Source of the DNA: Pseudomonadota bacterium
GTDB taxonomy: Bacteria; Pseudomonadota; Alphaproteobacteria; Sphingomonadales; Sphingomonadaceae
Reading direction: 5' to 3'
DNA length: 6,364 nucleotides
Assembly: GCA_023427285.1 (NCBI GenBank)
Contig: JAEZBH010000024.1
Coordinates: forward strand, 1 to 6,364
Below, one piece after another: positions 2,831 through 4,077 of this stretch. Each line of letters begins with the position of its first letter. The first letter of the stretch is position 1. A program made the position numbers and the translations under genes. The notes under the pieces are model-generated. The model had not been told where the DNA came from. It did not search any database and saw only the letters and a program-made list of their open reading frames with translations.

Positions 2831-3637
2831 ATGAATTTGAAGATAGGACAGAAAGCGCCCAATTTTTGCCTGCCAAGCCACCTGGGTGGAAAGGTGAGCC
2901 TGGTCGACTTCCGGGGGAAGAACCTGGTGCTGGCCTTCTTCCCGCTGGCCTGGACGCCCATATGAACGAACCAGATCCCGTCGTACGAGACCGAGAAGGA
3001 ATCGTTCGCGGGATTAAATGCCCAGGTTCTGGGCATCAGCGTCGATCATGTGCCTTGTTTGCAGGCCTGGGCCGAGAGCCTGGGCGGTATTAGCTACCCG
3101 CTGCTGAGTGATTTTTGGCCGCACGGCGAGGCCTCGCAGCAGTATGGCGTCTTTCGCCAGGGCGATGGACACTCGGAGCGCGCCATTTTTGTACTCGACC
3201 GGGTAGGCATCATCCGCTACATTGACGTTCACGCCATCGACGACCGCCCAGATAACGAGGAGGTGCGCAAGGTGCTGCGCGCCCTGGAGGCGGAATATAA
3301 AGCTGAGGCGAAGAAAGAGTCGGAGGCCGCGACGTCGCTGGCGTCCGCCGGGGTCTATGCCGGAGAAGAGGATGCGGTCGCCATCCCTGAAGGCGATGTG
3401 GTGCTGTACTGCGCCCGCTGGTGCAAAGACTGCCGCAAAGCGAAGGCGTGGCTGGAAGAGCACGGGGTAGCATACGTGGAAGTCGATATCGACTTCAACT
3501 TTGCCGCGCGTTCTCAGGTGCGCAAATGGGCCAATGGCTCGCTGGTCACCCCGGTGATTCTATTCGACGAGACGGTGATCCTCGATTATGACGTGCCCAG
3601 GCTGGAAGAAGCCTACCGGCGAAGGCAAAGTCGATGA
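2831..3637 (+). CDS. Selenocysteine peroxiredoxin fused to a glutaredoxin/mycoredoxin-like domain (TGA at codon 45 read as Sec)
   Basis: The 268-residue product combines an AhpC/TSA-type peroxiredoxin (about 1-153), an Ala/Glu/Lys-rich linker (about 154-187) and a glutaredoxin-like domain (about 188-265). The catalytic PxxxTxxC motif appears as PLAWTPI-U-TNQIP, with in-frame TGA (2963-2965) at residue 45 in place of the peroxidatic cysteine. Pro38, Thr42 and Arg117 of the active site are intact. Cys76 (VPCLQAW) is a candidate resolving residue. The second domain has WCKDC (197-201) and the cis-proline pair Thr240-Pro241. It should reduce hydroperoxides in the cytoplasm, with the fused domain recycling the oxidised selenium. 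The start has a strong Shine-Dalgarno, and a SECIS-like hairpin follows the TGA. The gene ends in TGA inside an ATGA overlap with the next gene. Without recoding, a caller would see a 44-residue stub and a fragment from GTG 3050. The alternative is a recent nonsense mutation. Confidence 0.87.
2963..2965 (+). other. In-frame TGA, putative selenocysteine codon (Sec45)
   Basis: The codon falls exactly at the peroxidatic residue: seven after Pro38 and three after Thr42, as in PxxxTxxC. It is the only in-frame stop between the ATG at 2831 and the end at 3635. Sequence on both sides is typical peroxiredoxin in the same frame, with no frameshift. Confidence 0.85.
2974..3015 (+). promoter_or_regulatory. 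Putative bacterial SECIS hairpin
   Basis: Starting 8 bases after the TGA, ATCCCG (2975-2980) pairs with CGGGAT (3009-3014), extended by a G.U pair 2974:3015. After a bulged U2981 come pairs 2982-2983:3007-3008, a U.U, and 2985-2988:3002-3005. A purine mismatch pair follows, then CC:GG (2991-2992:2998-2999) closing the loop GAGAA (2993-2997). The loop begins with G and lies 27 bases beyond the TGA. This agrees with the published bacterial SECIS model (small apical loop with a G among its first two bases, 16-37 bases from the UGA). The pairing was done by eye, without energy calculation. Confidence 0.6.
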
Positions 3638-4077
3638 CAACTTGGAAAGAATTTGCGCAGCAAGCGCCTGAACTGGCTGAATTTGGCAAGAAACGTTTCG
3701 CCAGCGCAGTGGCTTATTTGGCAACAGTACGCCCAGATGGCAGCCCGCGCGTGCATCCGGTGACGCCAATCATCGGCGAGCAGTTGTTCCTGTTCATGGA
3801 GCCTACTTCACCCAAGGGGAAAGATCTTCAGCGGGATGGACGCTACGCGCTACACTGCGCGGTGGAAAATTCAAACGGGGGTGGGGGAGAGTTCCATGTG
3901 CGGGGCCGCGCTGTGTTCACCAGCGATCCAGCGTTACGGGCGCAGGCAGTGCGGGCGGCCAGCTATGAACCGGCAGAACGCTATATCCTGTTTGTGCTGT
4001 CGATAGAGGCTGCCTTTAAAAATACCTATGATGAAACTGGCAGCCATCCGGTGCGCTGGCAGATACAGCAGGACTAG
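3634..4077 (+). CDS. Pyridoxamine 5'-phosphate oxidase-like FMN/F420-binding split-barrel protein
   Basis: The 147-residue protein has the split-barrel opening typical of the pyridoxamine-phosphate-oxidase-like superfamily: a helix, then VAYLATVRPDGSPRVHPVTP (26-45), and a strand LFLFMEP (51-57). Lys61/Lys63 and the following helix match the usual 'SPKGKDLQRDGR' phosphate-contact region. Members bind FMN, F420 or haem and include reductases, oxidases and stress proteins; the ligand and reaction here cannot be read from sequence. It is short for a true PdxH. The ATG overlaps the peroxiredoxin stop as ATGA, with GAAGG (3621-3625) eight bases upstream, so translation is probably coupled and the two proteins made together. 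Co-production with a peroxidase suggests a redox or detoxifying role, which is inference. It ends in TAG, 12 bases before the stop of the opposing gene. Confidence 0.85.
   Translation: MTTWKEFAQQAPELAEFGKKRFASAVAYLATVRPDGSPRVHPVTPIIGEQLFLFMEPTSPKGKDLQRDGRYALHCAVENSNGGGGEFHVRGRAVFTSDPALRAQAVRAASYEPAERYILFVLSIEAAFKNTYDETGSHPVRWQIQQD

Follow-up and report, generated by a model that had tools for sequence, protein, structure and literature searches.

Within the 6,364 nucleotides analyzed here (the window), a peroxiredoxin reading frame is interrupted by a single TGA at the codon where the catalytic cysteine is expected. The locus raises the question of whether this TGA ends a protein, marks a gene in decay, or is read as an amino acid, and, in the last case, what kind of enzyme is produced. 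The original prediction, based on the letters of the window, proposed a hidden selenoprotein.

The gene, its domains and its truncated calls

The features of the window that bear on this question are the following.

2815-2822, + strand: Shine-Dalgarno-like sequence AGGGGAGG, 8 nt 5' of the ATG (sequence reading)
2831-3637, + strand: AhpE-type peroxiredoxin-glutaredoxin fusion gene, 268 codons plus terminal TGA, as judged from translation, Pfam and structure matches
2843-3223, + strand: AhpC-TSA (peroxiredoxin) domain, residues 5-131 (Pfam PF00578, 132 bits)
2963-2965, + strand: in-frame TGA at codon 45, the peroxidatic position; predicted selenocysteine (TGA also in 38/38 further loci)
2974-3015, + strand: candidate SECIS stem-loop (folding z-scores), with apical loop GAGAA at 2993-2997, 27 nt past the TGA
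3050-3637, + strand: 195-aa ORF from a GTG (table 11), which lacks the catalytic position; the database protein P0002 has the same start
3056-3058, + strand: codon of Cys76, a candidate resolving cysteine suggested by its conservation in the fusions
3398-3580, + strand: glutaredoxin domain, residues 190-250, with C194, C198 and C201 (WCKDC) (Pfam PF00462, 48.2 bits)
3634-4077, + strand: PNPOx-family gene (Pfam PF01243), which overlaps the end of the fusion gene by ATGA and is possibly co-transcribed with it

Translation of 2831-3637 gives 268 residues in which the TGA at 2963-2965 is the sole internal stop, the terminal TGA lying at 3635-3637; the claim that one in-frame TGA splits the peroxiredoxin frame was thus confirmed. 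Its placement at the catalytic position of a PxxxTxxC motif was also borne out, because the codon 45 context reads FFPLAWTPI-U-TNQIPSYE and P38, T42 and U45 match the motif. The frame is closed on its 5' side by an in-frame TGA at 2813, and the Shine-Dalgarno sequence said to precede the ATG was found. Standard gene calling had been expected to lose the catalytic half: under table 11 this frame yields a 44-aa ORF and the 195-aa ORF from GTG 3050, and the catalytic half of the fusion would be invisible to such calls. Four points go beyond the original prediction: the glutaredoxin domain at the C-terminus, the assignment to the AhpE subfamily, the RNA structure that follows the TGA, and the truncated ORF at GTG 3050.

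All of the seven best solved structures found by sequence are Mycobacterium tuberculosis AhpE (top match 3.6e-27), and a Foldseek search with an AlphaFold2 model returned AhpE at ranks 1-12, with 39-40% identity and a TM-score by target of 0.89-0.94. By these closest sequence and fold matches the peroxiredoxin half is of the AhpE type, with a predicted peroxidase activity. The model, built on a 78-row alignment, has a mean pLDDT of 93.5 and a pTM of 0.65, the latter making the arrangement of the domains uncertain; residues 175-178 fall below a pLDDT of 50. The C-terminal domain passes the curated PF00462 cut-off of 22.9 bits, and its CxxC is formed by C198, kept in 78/78 aligned rows, and C201, kept in 77/78. 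Against NCBIfam, the glutaredoxin half scored 53.3 bits with a YruB-type model, below the cut-off, and 40.7 bits with the mycoredoxin model TIGR02200, whose cut-off of 89.5 was not reached, and so the resemblance to mycoredoxin is claimed in a works-like sense only. No NCBIfam model reached its cut-off among the 25 of 28 matches listed.

Codon 45 in related genes and proteins

The original prediction held that a chance nonsense mutation at exactly this codon was unlikely, and the DNA of related genes agrees. Codon 45 is TGA in the window and in every one of the 38 further loci whose DNA was read (L003 and L089, which are the same place, were counted once). In the tblastn matches, which comprise 40 rows (the window and 39 loci, with the same shared place), the codon 45 TGA is the sole stop within the match in 39; in the remaining row (L097) a second TGA, which is that gene's own stop, falls close to the end of the match. 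Furthermore, conservation on the 5' side of the TGA equals that on its 3' side in height.

The comparison of codon 45 with homologues was extended by a scan of species-genome contigs, from which 80 of 194 loci were kept. Opposite codon 45 these 80 have 11 TGA and 69 cysteine codons. TGA is present in each of the nine best loci (L001-L009), and in eight of them (L001-L008) the match extends to the glutaredoxin CxxC; L009 is cut by a contig end, so that its fusion is unproven. The matches of the 69 cysteine loci, mostly from Streptomyces, all end before the glutaredoxin CxxC. According to the record titles, L008 and L009 come from Coriobacteriia and L001-L007 from Chloroflexi or Anaerolineae groups. 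The same TGA also occurs in single-domain AhpE-like peroxiredoxins with no glutaredoxin domain (L015:6001-6483 and L020:406-894), from a Chloroflexi MAG and a Terriglobia MAG.

A larger sample was obtained by drawing 396 genomes from the class of G003, an Anaerolineae MAG. At a threshold of 1e-45, 53 of them have a match, and in 34 this is a long fusion (a match reaching at least position 177 of 251), always with an in-frame TGA (34/34). The 30 best of these long fusions were read as loci and have TGA at codon 45 in every case; of the other four it is known only that the TGA falls inside the match. The same search also gave further short matches with an in-frame TGA. Because 13 of the 30 genes read (L089-L118) also end in TGA, the codon serves both as stop and as sense in these genomes. 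Thus, an in-frame TGA is aligned with the catalytic cysteine of homologues and TGA-containing homologues exist in other organisms, two properties by which selenoproteins are recognized. This conservation of the TGA among related genes underlies the prediction that the codon is translated as selenocysteine.

Protein records tell how such genes are annotated. A protein search scored 7999 candidates, 7178 of them over threshold, and the figures given here are from the 120 listed. In 59 of these the alignment begins only at residue 49-77, and the others have Cys (32), Trp (28) or Arg (1) at position 45. With 59 of the 120 lacking the catalytic position, the likely activity of the family is hidden in annotation. 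The nearest database protein, P0002 (4 member sequences), has 94% identity over the matched part and starts at the place of the window's GTG 3050. The Cys forms indicate that selenocysteine is not essential to the fusion; they are present among the listed proteins and absent among the fusions from the genome searches. P0005, P0006, P0012 and 25 other listed proteins have tryptophan recorded at the peroxidatic position, which is likely a gene caller's code-4 reading of the TGA; if so, protein databases carry a false tryptophan in a catalytic site.

A tree was built from 34 TGA rows, all 32 listed Cys proteins and 12 of the 59 truncated calls. The window clusters with all 12 truncated calls (support 100/100), P0002 being the nearest, and the Sec and Cys rows are intermixed. 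The labels require 7 changes in all, but on branches with good support just 2 changes of the Sec label and 1 of the Cys label are unavoidable. Residue 76 is Cys in 39/40 TGA rows (Ala in L009) and in 21/32 of the Cys45 fusions; a Fisher test of this association with Sec/Cys type on the 34 + 32 tree rows gives p 1.2e-4, uncorrected for kinship.

The surroundings of the fusion gene are less uniform. The ATGA overlap suggests translational coupling of the PNPOx-family gene with the fusion; its best NCBIfam match is an F420-dependent subfamily, below cut-off. Neither this gene nor the rhomboid gene of the window has a match near the 39 related loci at 1e-6. The window's glycosyltransferase is matched only in L092 (74% identity) among these loci, and the LarA-like neighbor has a close relative only in L108 (59%), where it adjoins the fusion, and a distant one in L089/L003 (25%). 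Hence, no conserved neighborhood of the fusion was found across the 39 loci. The LarA-like protein itself (Lar_N, 1076-2326) has nickel-pincer hexonate epimerase as its best NCBIfam match, with 193.7 bits and a cut-off of 500. A long, near-perfect inverted repeat at 2742-2802 lies just 5' of the fusion gene, between a 75-aa ORF and the Shine-Dalgarno sequence; it is possibly a terminator or a regulatory hairpin, and no T-run follows it directly. Rfam families were considered for the window and rejected, as the six matches all remain below their gathering scores, the best three being microRNA models placed on this hairpin.

Downstream RNA and the decoding machinery

In the published model (available part of PMC13188914), a bacterial SECIS has a loop of 3-9 nt with G within its first two places, located 16-37 nt after the TGA, an upper stem of 4-16 bp and an MFE of at most -7.5. 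The 55 nt at 2963-3017 fold with -21.1 kcal/mol and a z of -3.5 against dinucleotide shuffles; three other cuts around the candidate gave z values from -1.3 to -2.7. A loose form of the SECIS rule is satisfied by the window and 28 others (29 of 39 genes), but also by 458/1159 control codons of the same genes. In all 29 the apical loop begins 26-28 nt past the TGA.

A second test kept the protein and permuted synonymous codons, in 39 genes and at 46 positions. The mean z reaches its minimum over the 46 positions, -1.83, at nt +13 to +57 after the TGA, where the window itself has -1.92. Neighboring windows have -0.5 to -1.05, and most others are within 0.4 of zero, with -0.75, -0.66 and +0.51 as the largest exceptions outside the peak. 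The position of the peak fits, because a bacterial SECIS should lie there, and the structured region is considered a candidate SECIS.

Regarding its precise shape, RNAalifold gave no consensus structure for the downstream sequences. Pair counts compared with letter shuffles gave 25 doubly changed cells against 15.3 expected, reached by 2/500 shuffles; on covariation in the full set, the drawn model (0.141) is outscored by a one-base slide (0.199). In the subset L098-L118 (21 sequences), picked because most of them fit one register, 79.7% of the cells are paired, which 0/500 shuffles reach, and the covariation score is reached by 1/500, with the -1 slide nearly equal (0.147 vs 0.149). Single folds lead us to think that the downstream sequences use two stem registers one base apart. 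This would explain the higher-scoring slide, as would an imperfect drawn model.

Decoding also requires the selenocysteine machinery, which was searched for in relatives. SelB is over the cut-off in 10 of the 11 genomes behind the TGA loci of the 80-locus set, and in 31/34 fusion genomes versus 314/396 in the whole draw; because selenocysteine decoding is common in the class, these counts and those for SelA and tRNA-Sec check a necessary condition and do not express an association. SelB is missing in three fusion genomes. For G272 and G313 the same search gives no EF-Tu-sized match either, which suggests assembly gaps, and in G070 the match is limited to a 184-aa fragment where a contig ends. 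Of the 14 genomes tested, 12 have a SelA match (G010 and G313 do not) and 10 have a tRNA-Sec match at 1e-8 (G002, G008, G009 and G313 do not); the RNA search was also positive in 5/14 control genomes. In G008 the selA match is cut by a contig end and in G009 selB directly follows selA, so selB may sit just beyond the G008 contig. In the fusion genome G010, SelB is matched twice over the cut-off and a tRNA-Sec is present, with no SelA match. The genomes nearest to the window by its LarA-like protein are G190, G106, G078, G150 and G042 (the five best rows, 69-71% identity); none of these five is among the 53 of 396 with a match at 1e-45, and SelB was found in four, not in G078.

Alternative readings and relation to known systems

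The conserved TGA, the truncated calls grouped with the window in the tree, the downstream structure and the sel genes of relatives support the selenocysteine predicted at codon 45, which we regard as very likely. One alternative is that a cysteine peroxiredoxin gene is decaying and that the TGA is a nonsense mutation or a sequencing error. The existence of Cys forms of the fusion (32 of the 120 listed proteins) would be compatible with this, but the same codon is TGA, and never TAA or TAG, in all the further loci from many genomes, both gene halves are conserved with no further stop before the gene end, and P0002 begins at the same post-TGA place; decay is thus very unlikely, and it is the least credible of the explanations. 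That TGA is an ordinary sense codon of the organism, for instance tryptophan in genetic code 4, with no involvement of selenium, is hardly more believable. The 28 Trp45 protein records speak for it, if they are not, as is likely, products of code-4 gene calling, while TGA is also the terminal stop of the fusion gene, at the place where its homologues end, and 13 of the 30 genes L089-L118 end in TGA as well. Seven other genes read here are not decisive on the meaning of TGA, as they end in TAA or TAG. To our knowledge, given established peroxiredoxin chemistry, tryptophan could not act at the peroxidatic position, which counts against this explanation as well. It is also improbable that the TGA is a regulated stop and that the internal GTG purposely starts a separate glutaredoxin-like protein. 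Such a product would be without the initial strands of the peroxiredoxin fold and without its active site, and the conservation before the TGA matches that after it. Moreover, the 59 homologues annotated from a start past codon 45, which might be taken as examples of this product, vary in their starts (best alignment from residue 49-77), as expected if gene callers choose the next available start.

The reading preferred here is that the AhpE-glutaredoxin fusion is a selenoprotein in which selenocysteine 45 attacks peroxides and is then reduced within the chain. We hold this full mechanism with good confidence, lower than that for the selenocysteine itself. In this scheme, the host's own SelB and Sec-tRNA-Sec would decode the TGA, aided by the stem-loop that starts about 8 nt past it. 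In reducing a hydroperoxide, the selenolate of U45 would be converted to a selenenic acid, which Cys76 and/or the fused glutaredoxin domain (C198/C201) would reduce within the same chain. The last step would mirror the action in trans of mycoredoxin-1 on AhpE.

The step most exposed to an alternative is this reduction, which might be carried out on an otherwise identical selenoprotein by an outside thiol, thioredoxin or hydrogen sulfide. In view of the pTM and the low-confidence residues 175-178, the two domains may not be oriented towards one another, TGA peroxiredoxins devoid of a glutaredoxin domain do exist (L015 and L020), and hydrogen sulfide has been proposed as a reductant of Prx6-type enzymes (available part of PMC12697902). 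On the other side stand the retention of C198 and C201 in nearly every aligned row and the precedent of the glutaredoxin-like mycoredoxin-1, which reduces AhpE (available part of PMC4360819); an outside reductant is considered rather unlikely. According to the available part of PMC12697902, thioredoxin, glutaredoxin and glutathione all fail to reduce many oxidized Prx6-type enzymes, so that a built-in reductase is informative.

For 1-Cys peroxiredoxins, those of the AhpE type included, the reductant is a standing question, and a natural fusion of an AhpE with a glutaredoxin domain, carrying a predicted selenocysteine at the catalytic position, suggests one answer. A broader proposal, which appears on balance plausible, is that these fusions are widespread, unannotated and self-contained selenoperoxidases, ranging from genomes of the Anaerolineae class to Coriobacteriia and hidden by truncated calls. 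They would combine a Sec AhpE with its own mycoredoxin-like reductase, by way of a U45-C76 selenenylsulfide handed to the CxxC, and would have switched between Sec and Cys more than once. The intermixed Sec and Cys forms on one tree also offer a natural set of comparisons for finding out what advantage selenium brings to a peroxidase.

Among known systems, M. tuberculosis AhpE (Rv2238c), a 1-Cys peroxiredoxin, is the closest by sequence and by fold, and it shares the DFWPHG stretch with the fusion. It differs in having Cys instead of Sec, a non-cysteine residue opposite Cys76, and a reductase, mycoredoxin-1, that is a separate protein, whereas the fusion carries its own glutaredoxin domain. 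On oxidation AhpE forms a sulfenic acid, and mycoredoxin-1 reduces this either directly or by way of mycothiol (available part of PMC4360819).

Of the original proposal of a selenocysteine peroxiredoxin exemplified by PrxU of Eubacterium acidaminophilum (NF040737), the selenocysteine peroxiredoxin stands and the identity with PrxU does not. PrxU, according to a review table, likewise has Sec at the TxxU position; the fusion scores 68 bits against its curated cut-off of 270, and the PrxU model has no glutaredoxin part. Identity with the thiol peroxidase Prx-SUH (NF045827) was rejected as well (27.7 bits vs a cut-off of 298); this family also contains Sec, and it is listed with a CxxU rather than a TxxU motif. 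The C-terminal domain resembles the glutaredoxin-like part of Uxx-star (NF041212) and of HUGP/GUXX-star (NF045501), the latter a fusion selenoprotein too, with 39 and 38.3 bits, far below the cut-offs of 66 and 325. Unlike these, the window's fusion has Cys in its glutaredoxin motif and Sec in the peroxiredoxin half. Peroxiredoxin and glutaredoxin also occur in one chain in the hybrid Prx5 of Haemophilus influenzae, a Prx5-type Cys enzyme.

Families of selenocysteine peroxiredoxins (TxxU) and of selenocysteine glutaredoxins are already established, according to the available parts of PMC13188914, PMC9312934 and PMC1794560. In the open-access literature searched, as far as its accessible text extends, no description of a selenocysteine AhpE-glutaredoxin, or peroxiredoxin-glutaredoxin, fusion was found. 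Judged from sequence, what appears to be new is the joining of a Sec AhpE to a glutaredoxin, Sec peroxiredoxins and Sec glutaredoxins each being known already.
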